Positions 11,149-22,187 of a DNA stretch of 64,000 nucleotides are shown here, one piece after another; position 1 is the first letter of the stretch; every line of letters begins with the position of its first letter. The translations under genes and the position numbers were made by a program. Where the stretch lies: assembly GCA_904419525.1 (NCBI GenBank), contig CAJFRT010000011.1, positions 1 to 64,000 of the forward strand, read 5' to 3'. The stretch comes from Candidatus Gallimonas merdae (GTDB lineage: Bacteria; Bacillota; Clostridia; Christensenellales; Borkfalkiaceae). Below the pieces are notes generated by a model. It made no database searches and was not told where the DNA came from. It saw only the letters and a program-made list of their open reading frames with translations.

Positions 11149-12433
11149 TGTTTCCTCCTTCCGACGCCGATGAGCCGCCGCCCGTCGGTTTCTCCGACTG
11201 GCCGCCCGCCCCCGCCGCGCCGTTTTTTGCGCTCTGATAAGCGTCCGCATTTTCTATGTTGACCGTATCGAGAGTTACCCTGTACTTTCGCCCCAGCCCG
11301 TCGGGCAGCGGGGCATATCCGATCATTTCGCGCATCTCGTCGTTGTTCATCACCCCGTTGCGCGATACAACGTTGAAGAACGCCGTCTTTGCCGAGAGTG
11401 TCGATACCTGCAGCCAGAACGTATCCAGCTCCAACCGGTTGCCGTGCGCCTGTTCCATGCGCGAAAAGATCTTGCCCGTGAATTCCTGTTCCACCTGCCG
11501 CGCGACCGGCTCAACATGATTCTTTACAAAGAGCTGATATTCGATTTCCGTCGCCTTATTGTTGACGATATCCGCCGTGATGCCGAAATAGTTGTAGACG
11601 ATGTCGATGACCAGCTTCATGAGATCGCGGTTGACGTCGTTCTCGTTCCAGTTGATGGGCGTGATCTTCCACTGCGGATCGACATAGGCGATCCCGCGTA
11701 CCGACTTATCAAAACGCGCGTCCAGATCGCGCATCGTTCCGTCCGCATCCTTCTCTTTCAGCTGTCCCTGCGCTGTCGGATCGGTCTGCATGATCGCCCG
11801 CACCTTGTTCGGATCCGCAACGGCGATCGCCTGCGCCGCAAGCGCCTGAATGACCGTTTCATACAGTCCGAGGTCGTTCTTCTGGCCGCCGCCCAGCGTA
11901 GAAAAACGGTTGAGATAGATGAGATCGCTCATGTCATACGTCTTTCCGATCCGCCCGAACGTGACCGTTGCGCGGTCGTCGTACAGCTTGAAGTCGTAAA
12001 AATCGTGCGGCAGCACATACAGCTGCGAGAGCCGCCCCGTGCGCGATGAAAAGCGCGGCTCGACGAACACATTGGAATACAGCATCAGCGACGTGATGAG
12101 ATTCACCCAGAACTGCGAGGCGTTCTGCAAAGGATTGGCGCGAATGTTGATGACGCGGTCCTCCTCCCCTTCGAGATAGGTCACGTTCCCGTCTTTGTCC
12201 TTGCGTTCAAAGTACTTCGGGATGATGGAGAAGATCTCCGCGAACGATTGGATCGCCGTGCGCACCTCCGGGATCTGATAGATGTTGCTCGCGTAGTTGT
12301 AGGCAAACCATCCCACGTTGTTGCCGTAGTACTCGTGAATGATCGTGCGGAGCTGCTCCCTCGGCGGCACCTGCCCCGGCCGCGGCTTACTCCGCCCGAA
12401 TGTGTTTTTGAAAAAATCCAGAATTTTCCCCAT
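11135..12433 (-). CDS. Portal protein (HK97 family)
   Basis: A 432-residue portal subunit (MGKILDFFKNTFGRSKPR). The family layout is visible: a wing domain containing VGWFAYNYASNIYQIPEVRT, PANPLQNAS-type positions near residue 95 (RANPLQNASQFW), VLPHDFYDF, and a long stem/crown region with ITADIVNNKATEIEYQLFVK. The dodecamer forms the DNA entry channel. It ends with a Gly/Ser-rich low-complexity tail. It follows the large terminase gene with 2 nt between them. Confidence 0.9.
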   Translation of the reverse strand: MGKILDFFKNTFGRSKPRPGQVPPREQLRTIIHEYYGNNVGWFAYNYASNIYQIPEVRTAIQSFAEIFSIIPKYFERKDKDGNVTYLEGEEDRVINIRANPLQNASQFWVNLITSLMLYSNVFVEPRFSSRTGRLSQLYVLPHDFYDFKLYDDRATVTFGRIGKTYDMSDLIYLNRFSTLGGGQKNDLGLYETVIQALAAQAIAVADPNKVRAIMQTDPTAQGQLKEKDADGTMRDLDARFDKSVRGIAYVDPQWKITPINWNENDVNRDLMKLVIDIVYNYFGITADIVNNKATEIEYQLFVKNHVEPVARQVEQEFTGKIFSRMEQAHGNRLELDTFWLQVSTLSAKTAFFNVVSRNGVMNNDEMREMIGYAPLPDGLGRKYRVTLDTVNIENADAYQSAKNGAAGAGGQSEKPTGGGSSASEGGNNAAT

Positions 12434-12435
12434 GA

Positions 12436-14202
12436 TCAGATCCTGAAAAGCTGTCCGATGCGATTTGCGTACAGCGGCATCTCCTTGGCCCGCTGGTAGG
12501 CGACAAATGCGTTGAATACGCCGACGGCACCGTCGATATGTCCCGTCGATTTCGCCTTGTGCGGCGAAAGGTTGTTGTTGACGTCCTGTCGGATTTTGAG
12601 ATTATAGAAGCAGTACGCAAACAGCTTGTTTCTTACATCCGCAACGATCTTGCCCGATTCAAACAGGCTTTTTACTACCTTGATCGGCTCGGACAGCGTC
12701 CAGCCGCCCTGTGCGACTTCGGTAAGAACGCCGAGATCGCGCGTGATACTTCCCGTCTCGCCGTCTCGACGGACCTTCTCGTGCGAAAACCCGTGTTCCT
12801 GCATATCCGTAAGCCACTCTTTTGAAAGCGCACGGTCATAGCCGATTTTTAGGAAGCTGATCTTGTATTCTTCACGCAGCAGCGTAAACCATGCCGTAAC
12901 GTACTCTTTCCGCACATAGCTTCCCGGCGTTACAATGACCACTTCACTCGTGACGCGGTCTCCCGTTGCAAGGTTTGTCATGCGCTGATAGTCCTGTTTG
13001 TCCCGCTCGCTGTTGCGCGCGAGGCGATCCTCTGCAATGAAATACGCCTGCAGATAGATGAACTTTTCGCCCGTCAGAATCTGCGCCGTTGCGTTGCACA
13101 AGTCCGTCGTTTCTGCGAGATCGACGCCCCCGACTGCGTATGTGTCGATATACTCTTCCGGCGCGACGATGCGCATGGCATTCCGGATGGCGACCATGCT
13201 GAAATAGTCGATGGACGCCCCGATCTGCCGATTCATGTGTTTGGCAATAAAGGTATTCAGCAGAACGGGATCGTCCTTCATCCCCTCCAGCTGCGTACGC
13301 AGGAACTCCATGGTCGGACGTCCCTCGTACATGGCGGGGTTTGCCTTGATCCAGCAGGCTTCATCGCGGTAGTCGTCCGTTTCGTCGATCCCGAACATGA
13401 GCGCAAAGATGCGATCATTCTGTCCGAGCCGTTTCTTTTTGAGAAATTTCTTGTTTCTCTCATAGAGGGACTCGTACAGGCTTTCCGGCGTAACGCCCGC
13501 CGAGGAAATGACGATCATCATCGGCTGCGACCTGGCCCCCATACCCGACTTGACCGCGTTGTACTGATTCTTGTTTGTGATCTCGTGCGCCTCGTTGACG
13601 ACGGCAACGGACGGATTGGCGCCGTCCTTTCCCTTCGTCCGTCCCGAAAGGTACTGAATTACGCCGTGCGTCTCCGGGCATTCGATCGTCTTGGACGTCT
13701 TGCCCGTTCCCGTAAACCAGCAATCCAGCGGATCTTCCTTGACGTTCTCTTTGACGAGATCGAACGTCCGCTTTGCCTGCGCCTCGTTCTCCGCAAGAAT
13801 CTGACACCATGCGGACGGCTCTTTATCGATGCCAACGAAATATGCGATAAGCGGTACGATGAATGTGTCTTTTCCCCACTTTCGCGCCACGAACAGATCG
13901 AGCTCTCGAAACCAGCGGACGAAGCGCTTTTCTTTCTTGTCCCACACCTTGATGCCGAGGATGCAGGCAACGATGTACTTTTGCTCGCGGTTGAGCTCGA
14001 CGGGCTGCCCCGCCCAAACGCCCTCCCGATGGCGGAACATTCGCGCAAAGTCGCGGAACGCGATCGGATCGGCTTCTTTATAGAAAATTTCTTTCCGGGA
14101 GATGAGCTCTTTGATCTGCCGGACATTGTTTTTGACGTGCTCGTTAAAATCCTGCGGACGGTTTTCGACGTAACGAATGTAGTCGGTGATCCATTTGAGC
14201 AT
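12436..14202 (-). CDS. Terminase large subunit (Terminase_1 type), variant Walker motifs
   Basis: A 588-residue packaging ATPase/nuclease. The N-terminal ATPase domain has a Walker-A-like ARKWGKDTFI (residues 106-115), where the residue after Gly-Lys is Asp rather than Ser/Thr, and a Walker-B-like SVAVVNEAHE (198-207), with Asn where Asp is common. The coupling segment MMIVISSAGVTPES follows. The C-terminal nuclease begins near AVGGVDLAETTDLC with a metal-binding Asp. It threads phage DNA through the portal and cuts it. The frame is intact and sits normally between small terminase and portal. Confidence 0.92.
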   Translation of the reverse strand: MLKWITDYIRYVENRPQDFNEHVKNNVRQIKELISRKEIFYKEADPIAFRDFARMFRHREGVWAGQPVELNREQKYIVACILGIKVWDKKEKRFVRWFRELDLFVARKWGKDTFIVPLIAYFVGIDKEPSAWCQILAENEAQAKRTFDLVKENVKEDPLDCWFTGTGKTSKTIECPETHGVIQYLSGRTKGKDGANPSVAVVNEAHEITNKNQYNAVKSGMGARSQPMMIVISSAGVTPESLYESLYERNKKFLKKKRLGQNDRIFALMFGIDETDDYRDEACWIKANPAMYEGRPTMEFLRTQLEGMKDDPVLLNTFIAKHMNRQIGASIDYFSMVAIRNAMRIVAPEEYIDTYAVGGVDLAETTDLCNATAQILTGEKFIYLQAYFIAEDRLARNSERDKQDYQRMTNLATGDRVTSEVVIVTPGSYVRKEYVTAWFTLLREEYKISFLKIGYDRALSKEWLTDMQEHGFSHEKVRRDGETGSITRDLGVLTEVAQGGWTLSEPIKVVKSLFESGKIVADVRNKLFAYCFYNLKIRQDVNNNLSPHKAKSTGHIDGAVGVFNAFVAYQRAKEMPLYANRIGQLFRI

Positions 14203-14214
14203 AGCCGCCGCCCG

Positions 14215-14727
14215 TCAATCGTCTTTCCGCTGCATCATCTTGCGGAACGGATCATCCTTGCGCTTTGCGTTTGCCGCTTTCAGTCCCGCCCGCGCCCGTG
14301 CCTGGGGAGATAGTCCCAGCTGATCGGCAAGTCGGATGCAGAGTGCGGCATTGTCGTTCCGCTTCTTGATGTTCGGATTGGCTTTGAGCACATACTTGGG
14401 ATTCCCGTCCTTGTCCTCGCCGCACTCGTACACGAGATAGGCGCGGGGATCTTCTTTGAGCGCCGCGTCCGCTTCGTCGGTAGCCACTTTGGCGCGGCAG
14501 TACAGGACCATCATGTCAACGTCAGCATCAGATACGCGGCAGTTGACCGTCTCCCGGAATACCTGCACGAGGAATTTCCATACCTTGCGCTCCTCCTTCG
14601 TGAGCGTCCTTGGCATTTTGAATTCCTGCCGCTGATAGATCGGCGTCTCCTCGTTGCGATCCCGGAGTTCCTCGTTGCTCCGATGTAATTTCTTGTCCGG
14701 CGTGATGCTCGGCAGCCGCCCCGCCAT
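14215..14727 (-). CDS. Terminase small subunit (P27 family)
   Basis: About 170 residues from MAGRLPSITPDKKLHRSNEE with GGAGG 9 nt upstream. Typical P27 features are an N-terminal helix-turn-helix-like part, a central L-T-K-E-E-R-K-V-W-K motif, and the C-terminal A-A-L-C-I-R-L-A-D-Q-L-G-L-S-P-Q-A-R-A-R stretch. It recognises the packaging site and recruits the large subunit. The 5' third overlaps the HNH frame for 200 nt. Confidence 0.85.
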   Translation of the reverse strand: MAGRLPSITPDKKLHRSNEELRDRNEETPIYQRQEFKMPRTLTKEERKVWKFLVQVFRETVNCRVSDADVDMMVLYCRAKVATDEADAALKEDPRAYLVYECGEDKDGNPKYVLKANPNIKKRNDNAALCIRLADQLGLSPQARARAGLKAANAKRKDDPFRKMMQRKDD

Positions 14728-15022
14728 TCTCCAATTCCTCCCAGAATTTGCTGAACTTCTGCAGCGGGCTCTCCCTCTCGTGCTCGGCATTGTGACAAGC
14801 GGCACACAAAAGTTCCAGATTGTCGGGATCAAGCCGTCTGCTCCAATCGACCTCTATCGGCACAATGTGGTGCACTTCTTTCCCCAAACTGACGATCCCC
14901 TTTGCCCGGCACCGCTGACAGAGTCCCGTCTCCTGTGCAAATTTGATCGTGCGGATCCGCCGCCATGCACGGGACTGATAAAACGCATCGTATTTCTCGT
15001 GATATGTCCGCCGATCGTCCAT
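14528..15022 (-). CDS. HNH endonuclease, first gene of the late operon
   Basis: The N-terminal 95 residues hold a full HNH nuclease: zinc ligands CQRC and CAAC, the catalytic EVHHIVPIE, and the DPDNLELLC segment. HNH proteins next to terminase help packaging in HK97-like phages. The start MDDRRTYHEKYD is used; a longer frame begins ten codons earlier. The frame continues 200 nt into the small terminase in another register; that tail (Gly, Gln, Ala rich) looks like out-of-frame translation, so the ancestral stop codon was probably lost. Confidence 0.8.
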   Translation of the reverse strand: MDDRRTYHEKYDAFYQSRAWRRIRTIKFAQETGLCQRCRAKGIVSLGKEVHHIVPIEVDWSRRLDPDNLELLCAACHNAEHERESPLQKFSKFWEELENGGAAAEHHAGQEITSEQRGTPGSQRGDADLSAAGIQNAKDAHEGGAQGMEIPRAGIPGDGQLPRI

Positions 15023-15184
15023 ATTTTTGCAAGATTTTCCCCAAAACCGCAAAACATTTCAAAAAGCGGAAAAGTTTGTAAAGCTGCATTTGGCGCGCTT
15101 GCGCGCGCGCCCGCGTTTTCGCGCGACACCAGGGGGGGATATGAAAAAATGCAGGCTTTTCGCTTTTTTCTGCGATTTGCCTGC

Positions 15185-15193
15185 ATTATAACA
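15185..15193 (-). promoter_or_regulatory. Extended -10 promoter (TGTTATAAT) of the late operon
   Basis: The minus strand reads TG-T-TATAAT upstream of the HNH-terminase operon, with no recognisable -35 box at the proper distance (an A-run is there instead). Two 17-bp direct repeats lie immediately upstream. That layout fits an activator-dependent late promoter. Confidence 0.6.
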
Positions 15194-15213
15194 TGCCGAG
15201 TCTCATGTTTTTT

Positions 15214-15262
15214 TCATGATTTTATAAGAAAACATCATGATTTTATCATGACTTTATAAGAA
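15214..15262 (-). repeat. Two 17-bp direct repeats 32 bp apart upstream of the late promoter
   Basis: The forward-strand unit TCATGA(T/C)TTTATAAGAA occurs at 15214-15230 and 15246-15262 with one mismatch. A third partial copy, TCATGATTTTAT, starts at 15236. Start-to-start spacing of 32 bp is about three helical turns, so bound proteins would face the same side. They are the best candidates for binding sites of the ArpU-like regulator encoded next door. Confidence 0.7.
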
Positions 15263-15264
15263 TT

Positions 15265-15645
15265 TCAGGTTTTCAGCCGCATGAGAGCCATTGCCGCCTT
15301 GTTTTTGGAAAGCCGATCGATTGCCTTTGCCTCCAAATTTGCGCAATGACCGACGCTGTATCCGAGACGTTCCGCCACAGCTTTCAGCTTCGTCCCCTGC
15401 AAGTATCGGAGCGCCATCACCCGATACATGGCACTCTCTTTGGGCAAATACCCGAGAATCAATCTGACTGCATTGCAATGCACTTCAAAATCTTCCTTCG
15501 CTTGGAGCAGCATATCCTTGACGGCGTCGAGCACCTCGCCCTTTTCGATCTGCCGCGCAATCTCCGCCGCCTGGTCCTGGCAGATGCGGTATGCCTTCAG
15601 ATATCCGCGCAGCTCTTTCTTGGAATCCTGCAAATCCACTTTCAT
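15265..15645 (-). CDS. ArpU/sigma-70-like late transcription regulator
   Basis: A 126-residue protein (MKVDLQDSKKELRGYLKAYR) with GGGGAGGAAAG upstream. The N-terminal half is helical; the C-terminal half has a helix-turn-helix of the sigma region-4 type: VMALRYLQGTKLKAVAERLG followed by YSVGHCANLEAKAIDRL. ArpU/RinA-like proteins activate the structural operon in Firmicute phages. Its stop codon is next to the paired repeats and the late promoter, supporting that role. It overlaps the preceding gene by ATGA. Confidence 0.75.
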   Translation of the reverse strand: MKVDLQDSKKELRGYLKAYRICQDQAAEIARQIEKGEVLDAVKDMLLQAKEDFEVHCNAVRLILGYLPKESAMYRVMALRYLQGTKLKAVAERLGYSVGHCANLEAKAIDRLSKNKAAMALMRLKT

Positions 15646-15842
15646 TCTTTCCTCCCCTGCCTTTGCATTTGACTGCAAATTTCATCTGCACTTTCCCGCT
15701 CTGCCTGGATCACAAAGAATGCCTCGCCGCACTCTTCACAGACAGTCTTTGAAAAGAGCGCAACGCCGTAGAGCCTCCGTCCGCAATACGGACAGAAGCT
15801 GATCCTTTCGTCGATATAGCCCGACGCAATGCCTGTCACCAT
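15642..15842 (-). CDS. Small zinc-ribbon phage protein
   Basis: A 66-residue protein with two CxxC pairs (FCPYCGRRLYG and CEECGEAFF) that would bind one zinc ion. AAGGAGGG lies just upstream of the chosen ATG. A GTG two codons earlier is an alternative. It overlaps the ArpU-like gene by ATGA, so it is co-translated with it. Function unknown; RNA or DNA binding is possible but unproven. Confidence 0.65.
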   Translation of the reverse strand: MVTGIASGYIDERISFCPYCGRRLYGVALFSKTVCEECGEAFFVIQAERESADEICSQMQRQGRKE

Positions 15843-15947
15843 GAACACCCTCCTTGACTTTGAAACGGGTTTCCCGTTTTCACCTTCCCGAAGTCGGGAT
15901 TTATACCAACTTCCTTATCCTGCTCTCTGCGCCGTACCACATTTCCG

Positions 15948-16796
15948 TCATTCCCGTCGGATGAAACGTGCGTAGAGATATACCCCCGCGACGTCGTCTG
16001 AGAATTTCACTTCCTGAAATGTCATCCGATATGCAGGGTTGCATCTTTGAAAGAATGCTTCCGCCTCTGCATAGTCCATTCCCATGCGCTGCGCGCGGCG
16101 GCGTGAGACAGCCGTGTCCGACACAGTGACTTTCGGCTGTTTCAGATTGCGGGACGCCGACCACATCCGCGCATGTTTGATAAGGAACTCCTTGCCCTTT
16201 GTGATGTACCGTCCGATCCCTTCCAGTCCCGCCTCGTCCGGCTGCAATCTTCTGGTGTGTGTCCGCGCGCCGCCCGTCCACATTTTCTCGGCAAGATCGC
16301 GGTCGGGAAAATTCATCACGCAATGATGATGTACGCGGATCTTCTTTCCGTCGTCAAGGTACTCCGTGACAAATATGTATTTGAGTTCTCCCCATTTCTC
16401 CCGCCGCATGCGGTAGGCAAGCCTGCGCAGATAGTTGCGAAAGAACTTGTGCGCCGCCTTTTCATCAGTCGGGAGCTTGTCCGCACCGTATGTAAACGTC
16501 GCCCAGACGTCTCCCTCTGTGAAATTAGCATTTAGCAGGCGAATGAGCCGCTTTTGCGCATTTCGCCTGTTGAGCCGTCTCTGCTTGTCGCGGGATTCTC
16601 TCGTTTTCTTTCCCCTTGTAAAATCCACCCTTTGGCTGAAGACGGGATAGATCTCGCATTCACGGATGTTCCCCGACGTGATCGTCTTCATGCGGTATCC
16701 GCATACACCCCTGTTGTCGATCTGCCGCGCTTCCGACTGCGGCATATCGAATAATTCTTCATAGTCCTCGCAAGGATATGCTTTGCGCTTCATCAT
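15948..16796 (-). CDS. HUH-type replication initiator (rolling-circle Rep-like)
   Basis: A 282-residue basic protein. A possible motif 1 strand WATFTYG is at residues 98-104. The metal-binding HUH motif lies in IRVHHHCVMN (His 156-158), and the probable catalytic tyrosine is Tyr197 in GRYITKGKE, with the expected Lys downstream. Such proteins nick one strand and bind covalently to the 5' end to start rolling-circle replication. AAGGAG precedes the start. Just upstream, in the opposite direction, lies a small-RNA transcription unit resembling the antisense RNAs that control Rep in plasmids. The element is otherwise a tailed phage, so this Rep may replicate the phage DNA or be a captured plasmid gene. 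Confidence 0.75.
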   Translation of the reverse strand: MMKRKAYPCEDYEELFDMPQSEARQIDNRGVCGYRMKTITSGNIRECEIYPVFSQRVDFTRGKKTRESRDKQRRLNRRNAQKRLIRLLNANFTEGDVWATFTYGADKLPTDEKAAHKFFRNYLRRLAYRMRREKWGELKYIFVTEYLDDGKKIRVHHHCVMNFPDRDLAEKMWTGGARTHTRRLQPDEAGLEGIGRYITKGKEFLIKHARMWSASRNLKQPKVTVSDTAVSRRRAQRMGMDYAEAEAFFQRCNPAYRMTFQEVKFSDDVAGVYLYARFIRRE

Positions 16797-16877
16797 GGCA
16801 GCTCCTTTGCCGCCGCCCGTTTCGTCCTACAAATAATACCTATTACAAGGCCGAGAAAGGCACTTCGTGCATATTTC

Positions 16878-16906
16878 TTGACATTTTATATAATAAGGTA
16901 TATAAT
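16878..16906 (+). promoter_or_regulatory. Perfect consensus sigma-A promoter (TTGACA-17-TATAAT), antisense to the prophage operon
   Basis: Both hexamers are exact consensus and the spacer is 17 bp. It faces away from the rep gene, into the intergenic leader, in a region where all genes run the other way. Confidence 0.85.
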
Positions 16907-16912
16907 ATAGGC

Positions 16913-16981
16913 AGTTGAAAGATTGTCTTTGGCGGCAGTCTTATGATTACGGGAATCCCTTTGCCGAGGGATTCCCTTTTT
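16913..16981 (+). ncRNA. Candidate small antisense RNA (about 69 nt) complementary to the rep mRNA leader
   Basis: The transcript predicted from the consensus promoter starts near 16913 and ends at an intrinsic terminator near 16981. It encodes no plausible protein. It can fold into a short 5' hairpin (AAAGA/TCTTT) and the terminator hairpin. A minus-strand message from the upstream operon into rep would carry the exact complement in its leader, as with the counter-transcribed RNAs of rolling-circle plasmids. Not tested experimentally. Confidence 0.65.
16951..16981 (+). terminator. Intrinsic terminator of the small RNA
   Basis: GGGAATCCC and GGGATTCCC form a perfect 9-bp stem with an 8-nt loop followed by TTTTT. 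On the minus strand no T-run follows, so it acts in the plus direction only. Confidence 0.85.
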
Positions 16982-16983
16982 CG

Positions 16984-17421
16984 TTACAGAACGCGGACGG
17001 AGTCCGTCTCCGTGTAATTCTTTTTGAAAAACAGCTTTCCGTCGTTGTCGAGCTTTACGGAAACCTTGATGCTTCCCAGCTTCACGGAAACGCTGTCAAT
17101 GTGCCCTCTCACGACTTCCATCCCGACAGAAAAGAGCATCTTGCGGCTGTCCTCGTGCAAGAAATGTCTTTTGCTCTCACAAAACTGCCCCAGCGCATCG
17201 ATCCCGTCGCGCAGCGCCTGTTCCGCACGGCGGCGCTCTTCTTTCATGCGCTCCTTTTCCTGATAGCCCTGCGCGCCCTTGCACTTACAGTGCATGGCCG
17301 CATAATGCTCCGCGTCCTTTTTGTCGATCAGCTCCCGATCCGCAATGATCGCCTGTCCGCAGAACGGACAGCGCGGCATGACAAGCTCTTCCCGGATCTC
17401 CTCCTTTTTACTCTTGTTCAT
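16984..17421 (-). CDS. Phage zinc-ribbon protein, early operon
   Basis: A 145-residue protein (MNKSKKEEIREELVMPRCPF) with AAGGAG 8 nt upstream. It has an N-terminal zinc ribbon (CPFCGQ near residue 18, then C-K-C near 40), a central helical Lys/Glu-rich region, and a beta-rich C-terminus (VSVKLGSIKVSVKLDNDGKL). A much longer frame upstream overlaps two other genes and is rejected. It overlaps the DUF3310 gene by ATGA. Function unknown. Confidence 0.65.
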   Translation of the reverse strand: MNKSKKEEIREELVMPRCPFCGQAIIADRELIDKKDAEHYAAMHCKCKGAQGYQEKERMKEERRRAEQALRDGIDALGQFCESKRHFLHEDSRKMLFSVGMEVVRGHIDSVSVKLGSIKVSVKLDNDGKLFFKKNYTETDSVRVL

Positions 17422-17705
17422 ACCTTTTTCTCCTTTTCCATCCGATTGATTTCCCGATCGAGGTACCACCTCGCTTTTTTCAGGTCCTCGATTTCCTTTG
17501 TCGGATCCTTCTTTCCTGCCCGAGCGATGTACTTGACCGCGTTCCCGCGATGAAAGTTCAGTCCTTTGTCCTCGATGAAATCGATGACTTCGATTTTTCC
17601 GTCCGTGTAATGGGCGGGATGCGACACGGGATCGCTTGCCTCCCGATGCTCCCGCTCTCCTTCCGCCCTCTGTGCCATAAACGGAAATTCCGGTATGTGA
17701 TTCAT
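17418..17705 (-). CDS. DUF3310 (SaV-like) phage protein
   Basis: A 95-residue protein whose second half matches the DUF3310 pattern: DPVSHPAHYTDGKIEVIDFI, then NAVKYIARAGKKDPTKEIED and DLKKARWYLDREI. The family is common in early or replication regions of Firmicute phages; it has been linked with nucleotide kinases but the activity is uncertain. The start MNHIPEFPFM has GGAGGAGGGG upstream. Its start overlaps the stop of the next tiny gene. Confidence 0.8.
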   Translation of the reverse strand: MNHIPEFPFMAQRAEGEREHREASDPVSHPAHYTDGKIEVIDFIEDKGLNFHRGNAVKYIARAGKKDPTKEIEDLKKARWYLDREINRMEKEKKV

Positions 17706-17788
17706 GACTTCCCCTCCTCCGCGAGTTCTTTTTCGGCTTGCCGTAAATATTCGGCAAAACAATAATTTGGATGTACGGAATCTTTCAT
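17702..17788 (-). CDS. Tiny phage protein (28 residues)
   Basis: An open frame of 28 codons (starts MKDSVHPNYCFAEYLRQAEK) whose start overlaps the preceding stop and whose stop overlaps the next start, both as ATGA. Two such couplings in one small frame are unlikely by chance, so I treat it as a real gene. The product is an acidic helix; function unknown. Confidence 0.55.
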   Translation of the reverse strand: MKDSVHPNYCFAEYLRQAEKELAEEGKS

Positions 17789-17991
17789 CTTTTCCAAAGA
17801 AGAACAATCCGAGAAAAAGTCTTTTCGAGCCTCTCGCGCAGGGCGGCGTTTTCGTTTTCAAGTGCTTTTACCGCTTCCCGCACCTGATCTTCCCATTTCG
17901 TTGCGTACTCCTCGGCATTCTCGCATACCGTGGTCGGAGCGAAACCCATTTCGTCAAACTCTATCATCAGATCAAGCAAACGATTCTTCAT
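17785..17991 (-). CDS. Small coiled-coil phage protein
   Basis: A 68-residue protein (MKNRLLDLMIEFDEMGFAPT) whose second half is a coiled coil (VREAVKALENENAALRERLE). It overlaps both neighbours. Function unknown. Confidence 0.55.
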   Translation of the reverse strand: MKNRLLDLMIEFDEMGFAPTTVCENAEEYATKWEDQVREAVKALENENAALRERLEKTFSRIVLLWKR

Positions 17992-18178
17992 CTTTCCCCT
18001 CCGCGTTCAGAGAATCGGCGTACGCCTGCGCAGAAGCCTTATCCGAAAATACCGCACCGCGATATTCCCGATTGCCGCTGTGATCGACGGCGAACATATC
18101 GATCAGGCGATAAACCTGATAATGATATGCGTCGTTGAAATAGTTACACGAAACCATCCATTTGCTCATCGTACTCAT
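17972..18178 (-). CDS. Small phage protein, unknown
   Basis: A 68-residue protein (MSTMSKWMVSCNYFNDAYHY) with an alpha/beta pattern and the segment AVFSDKASAQAYADSLNAEG, typical of small single-domain phage proteins. GGAGGGAAC precedes the start. Function unknown. Confidence 0.55.
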   Translation of the reverse strand: MSTMSKWMVSCNYFNDAYHYQVYRLIDMFAVDHSGNREYRGAVFSDKASAQAYADSLNAEGKDEESFA

Positions 18179-18187
18179 AGTTCCCTC

Positions 18188-20143
18188 CTATGCGGCATGT
18201 TCCGCCGCCCTGTTTGCTGCAATCTCTTCCGAAGGAACTTCTCGCACAACGCGGAAACGTCGCGTGCGAACCTGATCTTTTGCGTCCGGCACGATGACGT
18301 CGTGAATATCCGTCTCCACTTCGAGGATCGCGGCGTCCTTCCACCCCTTGCCGTAATTCATGGCAAATTCAAGCGATGCGACGTGCAGCCCCTTGACCGC
18401 GACACGATCGGGCTCTCCGTCCGTCTCGACTTCGATCCATTCGCCGACATGGTACTCCGTTTTTCCATCCCATCCGGACATGTACCGCCCGCCCTGCTTG
18501 TGGACCGCCTTGTAGTAGCGTACAATGATCGTATCGCCGTCGTACCCGTTCAGGGAACGCCGATTAAACCAGCGCGTGTACTTCTTGCAGAACGCATTCA
18601 CCTCGTCCGTGGCAGCGATATTGCGTTCTCCTCGCACCTGCACGATATGGCAGCGGCGCATGTCCTTTTTGATCTCCACCGTGTAGAAGTTCTTTTCGGG
18701 ATCTTCCACGCGGCGGAGGAACAGAATGACGCTCTCGCCCGTTGCAACGCGCTCAACGTAGCGTCCGACGCAGTGATTCTGCCGTATGCCTTCCTCGACG
18801 ATCTCCCGCGCCGAACGCGGCATGATGACGCGCAACTTCCCGTCCGACCATTCCGTGAGCGTGTGGAGCGAATCATACACCGCGGCGACAAGCGCCTCAT
18901 ACGCCTGCTTTTCCTGTACTTTCCGCTCGGTCGTCGCCCAATCATGCGCCTTTTTAAGCGAGCGCGGCGTCTTCACGGCAGTATCGCCGACATTGGCGCC
19001 GAGCAGACTGCACTCTGAAATGTAATCGGTGTAATCTGCTATGAAGTTTTTTACTTCGGGATAGTCCGCTCTCTGCGCCTGAAAATATCGGAACATCCGC
19101 TCGCGCGAGATGAAGTCATATCGAAAGTCCGTTCCCGACCGCTGATTCAGGCACACGACAAATTCCACCGCCGCCGCCCGTTCTTCCTCGTTGATCTTCC
19201 ATGCCTTTATTTCCTTGCGGGCAACGATCTGCTCCACGGTCATGCGCGCGCACTCCGCCGCCTCCGCGCGGCTGCCGATCCCGAGGTCTTTGAGCGATCT
19301 GACCGCCCGCATCATGCGGCGGGCATCGTCGCCGTAGTACTCCGTGATCTCCGCCGCCGCCCGATACAAACCTATCTTATAGAGGAGTTCCAGCTTGGGC
19401 TCGTCATCGTAATCATTGAGATAAAACATCGGATTGACGAGATTGTTTTCGGCGGCGACATCAAGTGCCGAATACTGATACGGCGTTCCGTGCAGAACGG
19501 CGGGAAGATTATAAGGATAGGTGTGGATCGCCCTGTCCCGCAGTCGCCACCCGCTCCATCCCTGCCCGTGTACACGTCCGCTCCCCGCCGTCCATTCGCC
19601 TGCATTCCGCCCTTGCGTCTTCGGATGATAGCTGAACAGCGTTGCCTTCCGCGCCGCACGGCGGAAATTGCGTTCTTCTTCGGTGAAATGGTATTCGACG
19701 TCGATTTCAAGCCCATGAAAATAACACGACTTGTAGCACTCGAACAAGCGCTGCGTGAAAGCGTCACCATCCCGCTCCACATAGGCGCACGCCTGGCTTG
19801 TTCCGACGCCGCCCGTCTTCGTTCCGTCTTTCAGCGTAACGACCGCCCCGCACGCGGGACACTCGATGACGCGGGAGGAACGGGCGCGCGTCAGATGCAC
19901 CTTTTTCCCGCACGCCTCGCACACGGCAATATAGCTTCCGCGCTTGACCTTTATGTAGAACATCCACTTCCCCATGCTCTTCTTCGCCCACTCCTGCACG
20001 AAGTCCGGAAGCTCCTCCGGCATCTGACGGATGCTCTTGAATGCCTGCTTCTTCTCTTTTCCGTACGTTCGTATCTCCGTTTCCGCCGCCTCGATCTGCG
20101 CCCTTGTCTGCTCGATGGCGGAATGGTCTGCATACATACACAT
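18188..20143 (-). CDS. PcfJ-like protein with zinc ribbon and DUF7666-like tail
   Basis: A 651-residue protein. After a helical N-terminus comes a zinc ribbon (CEACGKKVHL and CPACGAVV, residues about 72-100), a long helical middle, then the PcfJ core around EEGIRQNHCVGRYVERVATG and SVILFLRR near residue 460-490. The last 100 residues (YHVGEWIEVETDGEPDRVAV, GLHVASLEFAMNYG) resemble the DUF7666 fold often attached to phage proteins. PcfJ was named in conjugative plasmid pCF10; it is common in phages and its activity is unknown. It is the largest gene of the early operon. Confidence 0.75.
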   Translation of the reverse strand: MCMYADHSAIEQTRAQIEAAETEIRTYGKEKKQAFKSIRQMPEELPDFVQEWAKKSMGKWMFYIKVKRGSYIAVCEACGKKVHLTRARSSRVIECPACGAVVTLKDGTKTGGVGTSQACAYVERDGDAFTQRLFECYKSCYFHGLEIDVEYHFTEEERNFRRAARKATLFSYHPKTQGRNAGEWTAGSGRVHGQGWSGWRLRDRAIHTYPYNLPAVLHGTPYQYSALDVAAENNLVNPMFYLNDYDDEPKLELLYKIGLYRAAAEITEYYGDDARRMMRAVRSLKDLGIGSRAEAAECARMTVEQIVARKEIKAWKINEEERAAAVEFVVCLNQRSGTDFRYDFISRERMFRYFQAQRADYPEVKNFIADYTDYISECSLLGANVGDTAVKTPRSLKKAHDWATTERKVQEKQAYEALVAAVYDSLHTLTEWSDGKLRVIMPRSAREIVEEGIRQNHCVGRYVERVATGESVILFLRRVEDPEKNFYTVEIKKDMRRCHIVQVRGERNIAATDEVNAFCKKYTRWFNRRSLNGYDGDTIIVRYYKAVHKQGGRYMSGWDGKTEYHVGEWIEVETDGEPDRVAVKGLHVASLEFAMNYGKGWKDAAILEVETDIHDVIVPDAKDQVRTRRFRVVREVPSEEIAANRAAEHAA

Positions 20144-20152
20144 AATGCCGCC

Positions 20153-20491
20153 TCACAGAAGGTCTTCCAGCCGAATCGTTGCAGGGCGCTGCCCGACGTT
20201 TCGGAACAGATGCGCAAAGCGCTCGATCGGCCGCTGATACTTTGCGCCGAGCTTGGCGGCGATCAGTTCCGCCGCCCGGAAGGGCGAAACGACGCGCGTT
20301 TTGCGCCCCTCGTCCTCAATGAGCTTGTACAGCTCGGAAAGCCCGACCGCCTGATCGGCTTCAAAGTCGGCATTTTCTTGGGAAAGTGCCTCTACTGTGC
20401 ATTCCAAAACCGCTTCATGCAGTTCTTTGGTCGGCTCTTTCTCGGTCTCGTTGTCCTCAAAAAGCATCTTCAGATATTCGTCGCGTTTCAT
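20153..20491 (-). CDS. Conserved-looking phage protein, unknown
   Basis: A 112-residue acidic, helical protein (MKRDEYLKMLFEDNETEKEP). It sits directly upstream of the PcfJ-like gene, where a PcfK partner is sometimes found, but it lacks the PcfK signature, so I do not call it PcfK. The C-terminal half is basic (AAKLGAKYQRPIERFAHLFR). It overlaps the DUF3102 gene by ATGA. Confidence 0.55.
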   Translation of the reverse strand: MKRDEYLKMLFEDNETEKEPTKELHEAVLECTVEALSQENADFEADQAVGLSELYKLIEDEGRKTRVVSPFRAAELIAAKLGAKYQRPIERFAHLFRNVGQRPATIRLEDLL

Positions 20492-21390
20492 AATCCCCTC
20501 TCCTTCAGCACCACTTTAAGCGCGTTGACGCACTTTTCGACTTTCTCCCTGTCCATCCCCGTCATAATGGCAAACATCTCGCCGAGAATGTTCTGAAAAT
20601 CCTCAAACTTGACTTTGAAACGCATCATCGACTCATCGGACGCGATCTCCAACTGCTTCCTCGCGCTCTCATAGGCGGCGACCGCCTCATCCCGCGCCTG
20701 TTCCGCCGCCTTGAGCCGTGCGGCCGTCTCGGGATTTTCCACCTCATGCACTTCGGGCGGCGTGTTTTTAAGATCCTGCACCTGCTTTTCCAACCGCGTT
20801 TTCTCTTCTTCCAATTTGATAACGCGCTCACGTTCTTTTGCAGCTGCGGCGATCTGCTTGTCAGCCGCCGCCTGCGCTTTGGCTGCATATTGTTCCGCCT
20901 TCGTCTTTTCCTCCTCGAACAGGGAGAGCTGCGCCTGTTTTTCGTCCCGCTCCGCCTCCAGCTCACGGATTCGCGCTTCCAGCTCCCGCGTGGTCGCATT
21001 CTCTACGTCCATCCCCTCCTCGACGCCCTCGCGTTCCGTTTCGGAAATAGAGGCAAGCAGGGCGAGCTTGGTCACGCCGTAGCCCGCGTGTTCTTCAAGG
21101 TACTTGTCCGTAAACCGTTCGGCGACCTTGATGTAATTGTACGCCTGCCGCTGTTTCAGCCCGACCGCCTGCTCGACATACTCGCCAAAATCTGCAAAAC
21201 CCGCCGCCGCATACAGCTTTCCGTCCCGCATGCGCTGAAGTTCACGGGCAAGGTCGATAAACGCCCTGCCCGCCGCATTCCCGCAGGAGATGATTCTCCT
21301 GTGCGTTGTGATGAAGTTCTCCTGTTCTGCGGACAGCGTTTCCTGCCGTCCATCCGCGAGCATCAACTGCTCAAACACCTTGTTTTCCAT
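20488..21390 (-). CDS. DUF3102-family coiled-coil phage protein
   Basis: A 300-residue protein starting MENKVFEQLMLADGRQETLS with AGGAGGG upstream. The N-terminal 120 residues follow the DUF3102 pattern, including AAGFADFGEYVEQAVGLKQR and QAYNYIKVAERF, a possible DNA-binding helix-turn-helix. A long Glu/Lys/Gln-rich coiled coil (residues about 130-240) follows. Its leader repeats that of the first gene of the operon. Role unknown, possibly replication or partition. Confidence 0.7.
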   Translation of the reverse strand: MENKVFEQLMLADGRQETLSAEQENFITTHRRIISCGNAAGRAFIDLARELQRMRDGKLYAAAGFADFGEYVEQAVGLKQRQAYNYIKVAERFTDKYLEEHAGYGVTKLALLASISETEREGVEEGMDVENATTRELEARIRELEAERDEKQAQLSLFEEEKTKAEQYAAKAQAAADKQIAAAAKERERVIKLEEEKTRLEKQVQDLKNTPPEVHEVENPETAARLKAAEQARDEAVAAYESARKQLEIASDESMMRFKVKFEDFQNILGEMFAIMTGMDREKVEKCVNALKVVLKERGL

Positions 21391-21418
21391 GATACCCTCC
21401 TGAAATTTTGTAGTTGAT
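21385..21418 (-). repeat. Shared leader repeat, copy 1 (DUF3102 gene)
   Basis: On the minus strand ATCAACT, an A-rich stretch, AAATTTCAGGAGGGTAT and the first codons ATGGAAAAC match the leader at 22496-22532 with few changes. Shared translation signal or recent duplication. Confidence 0.6.
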
Positions 21419-21425
21419 TGCAAAA

Positions 21426-21683
21426 TCACTGCTCTCCGTCGCCGTATTTGGCGACAAATTTCTGATACTCTGCCGCATAGTCTTTGGCAAAGAATACGCG
21501 GGAAACATCTACCCATGTGCCATCGTGAAATCGGATGGACGCCTTGATCCCGCCATTCTCACGATCCTGCTCCACAAGATACCCCGTGATACGGCGCGTC
21601 TTGCAGAACGGCTTTCCCGTTATAACACTTTTCACCAGCTCACACGCTTCTTTTCCGATCAGACTCTGATCTACTGCCAGCAT
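21426..21683 (-). CDS. Small phage protein, unknown
   Basis: An 85-residue protein (MLAVDQSLIGKEACELVKSV) with a beta-rich centre (GGIKASIRFHDGTWVDVSRV). It overlaps the preceding gene by 13 nt. Function unknown. Confidence 0.5.
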   Translation of the reverse strand: MLAVDQSLIGKEACELVKSVITGKPFCKTRRITGYLVEQDRENGGIKASIRFHDGTWVDVSRVFFAKDYAAEYQKFVAKYGDGEQ

Positions 21684-21922
21684 GATTCCGCCCTCCGATG
21701 CAGCCTGTGAAACCGTGTTACAGCATAGAGCGATCCCGCCGTGTGGCGCCTGATCCGTGCGTACACGGTGACCTTCCCGTCAATGCGGGCGAAATATAGC
21801 GCCGTCAGAAACCTGCGATAACGCTCGATCGCCGCCAACGCTTCCTGCGTGTGCTGCGGCTTCCACTCCGTTCCGTTGATGACGACCTTGTCCACCGTTC
21901 CGAAAATATTGAAACCTGCCAT
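21671..21922 (-). CDS. Small basic phage protein, unknown
   Basis: An 83-residue protein (MAGFNIFGTVDKVVINGTEW). The second half is Arg/His-rich. AAGGAGGGGAAC precedes the start. Function unknown. Confidence 0.5.
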   Translation of the reverse strand: MAGFNIFGTVDKVVINGTEWKPQHTQEALAAIERYRRFLTALYFARIDGKVTVYARIRRHTAGSLYAVTRFHRLHRRAESCWQ

Positions 21923-21932
21923 GTTCCCCTCC

Positions 21933-22187
21933 TTATCCTTCGAGGTCCGCTTTCCGCGCGAGGTAGTCCCGAACGGCGTCCTCGAAAACTCTGAAATAAT
22001 GTCCCCATGCCCAATCGTAGCCGCTCATCCCGCTTCGCCGCGAAAGGTCACGAACAGTTATGTACGGGCAGCCGGCATCTTCACAGATCAGCAGCGCCAC
22101 GTTCCCGCGCGGTGTTTCCTGAATGTGTGCGATCGTAAAGTACATTCCTTCCGTAAGGAATCTGCTTCCGATTTGTAAATCCGTCAT
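21933..22187 (-). CDS. Small phage protein, unknown
   Basis: An 84-residue protein starting MTDLQIGSRFLTEGMYFTIA. The start is placed at the ATG overlapping the stop of the HTH gene (ATGA); a longer frame upstream overlaps that gene. The sequence suggests a beta-barrel-like small domain followed by an amphipathic helix (VFEDAVRDYLARKADLEG). Function unknown. Confidence 0.55.
   Translation of the reverse strand: MTDLQIGSRFLTEGMYFTIAHIQETPRGNVALLICEDAGCPYITVRDLSRRSGMSGYDWAWGHYFRVFEDAVRDYLARKADLEG

Follow-up and report, generated by a model that had tools for sequence, protein, structure and literature searches.

A predicted short antisense RNA unit at the probable rolling-circle origin of tailed phages with an HUH replication initiator

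Introduction

What is the role of a consensus promoter, closely followed by a terminator, on the plus strand of a prophage region whose genes all point leftward? The question is posed by a 187-bp gap (16797–16983) in the window, by which we mean the whole analyzed stretch of 64,000 nucleotides of Candidatus Gallimonas merdae. The original prediction placed in this gap a small antisense RNA unit upstream of a prophage rep gene, and it rightly described the genes around the interval as running leftward. The surroundings are those of a temperate tailed phage, with an integrase, CI-like and Cro-like regulators and an excisionase-like protein. Further prophage genes are, in order, rep, HNH, the large terminase, the portal, the protease and the major head protein.

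The rep gene encodes a predicted HUH replication initiator. It matches PF23343 with 41.4 bits (cut-off 27.8), the HUH motif (HHH) being present in the alignment, and PHROG 3584 with E = 3.6e-68; among solved structures, the Rep profile found none at E ≤ 0.1. The start of rep may be the second ATG, at 16793, the first ATG being ACG in a close relative. Upstream of rep the window also encodes a 651-aa protein with a PcfJ-like domain (PF14284; 18188–20143, minus strand). A second, distant HUH Rep is found in the same genome (G000 contig 10, 63885–64541, minus strand; L227), without the origin motif that is listed here with the other features.

15948..16796, minus strand: rep, predicted HUH replication initiator (profile matches to PF23343 and PHROG 3584)
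16804..16812, minus strand: CGGCAAAGG, over the Shine-Dalgarno region of rep, complementary to the terminator loop region 16958–16966
16830..16850, minus strand: CCTTGTAATAGGTATTATTTG, conserved motif common to rep relatives, probable nick site of the double-strand origin
16860..16870, minus strand: small hairpin between the antisense –35 and the motif, which it directly precedes on the 5' side; weak (z = –0.88, stretch folded as DNA)
16878..16906, plus strand: promoter of the sigma-A/sigma-70 type, TTGACA-17-TATAAT (12/12 matches; hexamers unchanged in the close relative)
16902..16929, minus strand: weak sense promoter-like site (9/12) that faces the antisense promoter; possible own promoter of rep
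16913..16981, plus strand: predicted antisense RNA of about 69 nt (z = –4.55; 69/69 positions the same in the close relative)
16913..16948, plus strand: RNA hairpin at the 5' end, loop UUUGGC (sequence ahead of the terminator stem folded by itself, z = –2.52)
16951..16981, plus strand: intrinsic terminator, 10–11-bp stem (16951–16976) and TTTTT
16984..17421, minus strand: upstream gene, 145 aa, function unknown (match to PHROG 24368)

Results

The antisense unit in the window

The exact promoter claimed in the original prediction is there: its –35 element occupies 16878–16883 and its –10 element 16901–16906, separated by 17 nt. Within 12000–22000, 11 promoter-like sites reach at least 9/12 (5.4 expected, sd 2.5), and this one is the sole 12/12 site. 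With the start of the RNA placed at 16913, 7 nt past the –10, the product runs to 16981 and has the predicted size and form, folding into two hairpins (16913–16948 and 16951–16976) at –30.1 kcal/mol (z = –4.55), a stability that none of 200 dinucleotide shuffles matched. The intrinsic terminator with its TTTTT was borne out, its stem having 10 perfect pairs, or 11 counting a G-T pair, rather than the nine first given. The distance of 45 bp to the terminator is right from the end of the –10 and becomes 38 from the predicted start. That the RNA holds no ORF is a fair description, if not an absolute one: on the plus strand a frame that begins with TTG at 16915 stays open across the terminator, and it looks spurious because it is antisense to the upstream gene.

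The RNA is located opposite the rep leader, in the 187-bp gap among leftward genes. Its 5' end is 117 nt from the rep ATG, and its terminator stem ends 5 nt short of the stop codon of the upstream gene. A DNA search found the interval as a single copy in its own genome. Among the matches listed from 396 genomes of the order, there were beyond the own copy only short ones, the best at 45.5 bits over 37 bases; the close relative G454 was not among the matches listed. Rfam gave 0 matches in the window; RatA scored 21.1 bits on the other strand, below its cut-off of 49. Over the unit, Rfam had no match in the 20 relatives checked, of about 340 loci, and the exact terminator pattern had no occurrence in the viral contigs.

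Conservation in a close relative

Rep relatives are present in 9 of the 103 genomes of the genus, the own genome included, and one of the others is close (G454, 93%). The gap in this relative is identical at 184 of 187 positions. The three differences are at 16809, at 16887 in the promoter spacer and at 16912, position –1 of the RNA; the –35, the –10 and all 69 RNA positions are unchanged. At third codon positions the two sequences agree in 230 of 283 cases (81%) for rep and 122 of 146 for the upstream gene. We scanned 22,313 fully aligned 187-bp windows of the prophage against the relative, and equally conserved ones start only at 11211–11374 and 11628–11764, in the portal gene. The expectation that promoter and terminator would be conserved while the middle varies agrees with the distant relatives; in the close one the middle has stayed the same as well.

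The unit recurs across related phages

A scan of viral contigs with the single protein found no Rep relatives; profile scans did find them (best 80 per scan). Three sets of loci were assembled, of which 99/129, 62/72 and 89/115 loci were kept, giving 74, 24 and 22 clusters; a cluster was counted in set 2 or 3 only if none of its members had appeared in an earlier set. Loci were dropped for an origin-motif score below 8, for a motif that was not the best of its locus, or for less than 330 nt upstream. The 330 nt 5' of the motif were then searched for a promoter of at least 9/12 with a terminator 20–110 nt further on. By these strict criteria the antisense unit was detected in 34/74 clusters of set 1 and on the sense strand in 1/74. 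Ten shuffles gave a mean of 0.6/74, and control stretches of 330 nt gave 13/872. When the promoter had to reach at least 11/12, the counts were 15/74 clusters against 0/872 control stretches.

The criteria were next loosened on set 1: looser terminators and wider spacers were admitted, an extended –10 earned a bonus and a limit was set on the position. In this form they were frozen for sets 2 and 3. Set 1 then gave 53/74 clusters (sense strand, 1; controls, 23/872) and set 2 gave 14 of its 24 new clusters (sense, 0; controls, 5/288). The yield in set 3, at 7/22 new clusters (sense, 1), was lower than in the earlier sets. Altogether, 74 of 120 non-redundant clusters carry the unit in antisense orientation, compared to 2/120 on the sense strand; the control regions, which cover 98 of the 120 clusters (sets 1 and 2), total 28/1160. 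The unit is real as sequence, far beyond chance, and the claim that a short antisense RNA unit precedes an HUH rep has gained support, its recurrence extending to many related phages. The window RNA can be assigned, on these comparisons, to a recurring positional family found with this family of HUH Rep. Between distant phages it is the position, the size and the two-hairpin form that recur; the sequence does not.

Units are spread over the major branches of a quick Rep tree made without bootstrap (sets 1 and 2). Their gain and loss require 18 changes on 98 rows, against 26.5 in shuffles, and one Rep clade of 7 rows appears to be without the unit while keeping the motif. In 19/67 clusters, the window not being among them, the terminator stem reaches into the upstream open frame. 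The unit-carrying records that name a host give Latilactobacillus and Terrisporobacter, most contigs having no named host. The remaining 46/120 clusters fail the unit criteria. By eye, several of these misses resemble units (for example L133, L089, L318 and L240) and others appear to be without one. The gap is shorter where the unit was not found, with a median of 80 nt (30) against 145 nt (67), p = 0.001.

Some further observations were made at these loci. In L195, L199, L203, L253 and L267, which fail the unit test, a palindrome-like stretch precedes the motif by eye (TTTCCTTTATATAGGAAGAAAC in L203), and it may perhaps be an operator replacing the RNA. Two adjacent Rep relatives, L006 and L007, one of them with an internal stop, are located at 13877–15447 of G086 contig 26. 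A type II hammerhead ribozyme match (37.1 bits, cut-off 37) is found at positions 25–94 of L104, plus strand, about 1 kb upstream of the unit.

A probable origin motif between the RNA and rep

The sequence CTTGTAATAGGTATTA, with C(A/G)AC shortly after, is found 5' of rep and is common to Rep relatives with identities as low as about 35%. The form CTTGTAAT(A/G)GGTATTA precedes this Rep family in the window (16830–16850, minus strand) and in related loci. Its position and form make the motif a probable nick site of the double-strand origin, one that would serve a large group of phages, and it may resemble the nick site of pC194. The matrix site before rep is the best of its locus in 98/129 loci, a count that is partly circular, because the matrix (41 distinct sites) was built from sites of those same loci. 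In related loci a hairpin frequently ends at the motif. The probable origin motif lies between the antisense RNA and rep. The distance from the end of the –10 to the motif shows preferred values in the 55 listed set-1 units (threshold ≥ 8): 54–63 nt in 27 and 80–88 nt in 15.

Folding and covariation of the RNA in relatives

Compared with its shuffles, the part of the RNA ahead of the terminator stem is the better folder. In the 57 of 67 units in which this part has at least 18 nt, 10 shorter ones being left out, the median z is –1.73, with 34/57 at –1 or below; matched stretches beyond the terminator have a median of 0.00, with 15/57 at –1 or below (p = 2e-5). This part is dispensable for both promotion and termination, and its folding speaks for an RNA and not for a promoter alone. 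Covariation was examined in 13 related RNAs of the L040 clade, named after L040, a phage sequence from human faeces. The terminator stems co-vary, with two-sided changes in 6 of 9 pairs, and the consensus fold of these 13 RNAs contains the terminator hairpin only, with no common 5' hairpin. Between L062 and L063/L067, one pair of a 5' hairpin is exchanged by eye from A-T to G-C.

Leader mechanisms and pairing with the rep start

A leader attenuator was rejected for the window, where there is no sense terminator between the antisense RNA and rep. A first count in the relatives had seemed positive (32/67 against 13/200 controls). Sense terminator-like matches are present in 45/98 loci; 32 of the 45 end at –12 to +17 of the motif and resemble its hairpin, and 8 end 21–52 nt before it (for example L041 and L087). 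Attenuation is thus possible in a few relatives. RNA binding is not predicted to refold the ribosome site in one consistent direction: the site opens in 13 and closes in 17 of 61 clusters (p = 0.25). When the target is blocked, the ribosome site opens in the window from 0.33 to 0.53 (from 0.46 to 0.61 with the second ATG) and closes slightly in the close relative, from 0.59 to 0.53. General refolding of the ribosome site is therefore unsupported, having no general effect over the 61 clusters. Pairing of the target region with the ribosome site was likewise rejected, since 6/67 clusters at ≤ 5 of 100 shuffles is near chance.

Direct pairing of the RNA with the rep start reached p ≤ 0.05 in 8/67 clusters by exact run and in 12/67 by duplex energy. 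Over 61 clusters the match was found in 10 by shuffle (binomial p = 8e-4) and in 13 by swapping (p = 8e-6), compared to 8/305 for control targets. The starts of rep were chosen by rule and may be wrong elsewhere; six of the 67 units were left out of the 61-cluster test, the chosen start being more than 260 nt from the motif. The L040 clade contributes 6 of its 13 representatives at p ≤ 0.05. Outside it the result is about chance (4/48; third set, 0/7). As that clade carries the signal, we claim RNA-to-start pairing for it only. Within the clade, 18 of 19 distinct RNAs, L086 being the exception, have a match of 7–11 nt between the 5' part and their own rep start region. A match of 7–8 nt is not rare by itself. 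L084, L090 and L168, which have divergent starts, match their own start better than any other in the set. In the L040 clade the RNA thus has, in its 5' part, a match to the rep start region, and both change together.

In the window it is the terminator loop region, CCTTTGCCG, that matches the Shine-Dalgarno region, over 9 nt (p = 0.02, uncorrected). The close relative has one mismatch in this match, and pairing between the RNA and the rep start in the window is only suggestive.

Discussion

A probable function of the unit and its rivals

The analysis computed the unit itself, how well the close relative conserves it, how often it recurs and how its RNA folds. From these results we infer transcription, pairing and negative control of rep, each with its own strength. 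Transcription of the antisense unit is very likely. It is likely as well, with less assurance, that the RNA restrains rep. The reading that we prefer, and hold to be probable, is that of a short antisense RNA with its own promoter and terminator at a rolling-circle origin, OOP-like, that restrains rep. The RNA would be made immediately 5' of the predicted origin, from a promoter firing against the early operon and opposing the early genes that read into rep. It would pair, on any message that continues into rep, with the intercistronic leader, and this pairing would expose the rep message to cleavage or block its translation. Restraint of rep expression would in turn restrain replication. In the L040 clade the 5' part of the RNA could also pair with the rep start region. 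A much wider version is put forward tentatively, and we rather doubt it: across the lineage, temperate tailed phages would have an antisense RNA of one family as a built-in part of their rolling-circle origin. The loop of this RNA would evolve with the rep start region and act in trans, and would in this way determine how replication is controlled and whether co-infecting or resident phages are incompatible. If the preferred reading is right, the small RNA and the origin motif could be tested right away in those phages of the group that can be cultured, and the RNA might account for exclusion between related prophages.

The promoter itself could be the active element. Firing against the early operon may cut read-through into the origin and rep, or alter supercoiling, the RNA being a by-product kept short by the terminator. 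The preferred distances between the –10 and the motif would suit such origin tuning, and pO of lambda offers a precedent (PMC3985674). Interference alone needs neither selection on the fold of the 5' part nor the identity of the RNA body in the close relative, and we consider it improbable. It stays a serious rival, because for lambda it is reported that OOP acts as an antisense RNA on cII and also that the promoter affects replication (PMC3985674, PMC3349717), and because OOP is reported in PMC3985674 not to alter the stability of the O-P mRNA.

It is unlikely that rep is transcribed from a promoter of its own, placed downstream of the unit, and that the RNA acts, as a trans-type sRNA, only through the short match to the ribosome site. 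The matched changes in the L040 clade would agree with this, as would the weak sense promoter-like site at 16929–16902 and the number of sense promoter-like sites between RNA and rep (19/67 against 32/200 controls, p = 0.03); no single position of such sites stands out in 98 relatives, however, and outside the L040 clade the matches are not beyond chance. The same matches admit a reading as DNA. Any RNA seed is also a direct DNA repeat, and repeats common to the RNA and the rep start that are bound as iterons by one protein, Rep or a regulator, would change together; the observed G-U pairs do not argue for RNA, because the scoring admits only Watson-Crick and G-U pairs. This reading concerns the seed alone and leaves the promoter, the terminator and the RNA fold unexplained, and we give it little credence. 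Least probable, and by our estimate very improbable, is an RNA that primes complementary-strand synthesis as part of a single-strand origin. It has the antisense polarity and the nearness to the probable double-strand origin in its favor, and is opposed by the strong terminator, by the canonical double-stranded promoter and by the Rep clade in which the motif is kept but no unit was detected. For OOP the primer idea is described as unlikely in PMC3985674.

Comparison with known systems

The antisense restraint of rep that we prefer has its nearest phage counterpart in lambda, in which the order is upstream gene, tO, oop, pO and ori (PMC3349717, PMC3985674). The window has the same order of upstream gene, terminator, RNA, promoter and replication region, and in both cases a short self-terminating RNA opposes the early operon, of 77 nt in lambda (PMC3349717) and about 69 nt here. 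What defines an OOP-type unit, a self-terminating RNA from a promoter beside the (predicted) origin and against the early operon, is found in the window at the level of sequence. The differences are of note. Lambda uses O and P and an iteron origin inside gene O (PMC3985674), whereas in the window an HUH Rep is combined with a motif that precedes rep. The overlap of OOP with cII amounts to 55 nt; the window RNA ends just short of the stop codon of the upstream gene. As OOP is reported to leave the stability of the O-P mRNA unaltered, the analogy is no proof that the downstream gene is controlled.

The original prediction had likened the unit to those of pMV158 and pT181, which proved too specific. 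RNAII of the pMV158 type covers the rep start region, whereas the window RNA does not, its distance from the ATG being 117 nt. pT181 relies on a leader attenuator mechanism, and the window leader is without an attenuator terminator. The broader likeness stands, in that a short antisense RNA controls the rolling-circle initiator in pT181, pMV158, pC194 and pUB110 (PMC5703833); the RNAs of pC194 and pUB110 are predicted over the Rep start region (PMC5703833), whereas here the probable origin is located between the RNA and rep. The nearest plasmid case is RNAI of staphylococcal pSK41, of about 83 nt; it has two stem-loops, and its complement in the rep leader lies about 100 nt ahead of the start region (PMC5703833), compared to 117 nt in the window. 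The plasmid is of the RepA_N type, and its RNAI is proposed to hide the ribosome site, which is not predicted here generally. In Bacillus subtilis an antisense RNA lies over the 5' untranslated region of dnaA, likewise the leader of an initiator, the target there being chromosomal (PMC12112137).

A search of open-access full texts for antisense RNAs of phage rep genes, for OOP-like RNAs and for the motif string found no description of the unit. Antisense control of initiators in plasmids and an antisense RNA beside the origin in lambda are known already; here the RNA appears as a module that recurs, along with a predicted nick site, across a large group of tailed phages with HUH Rep.
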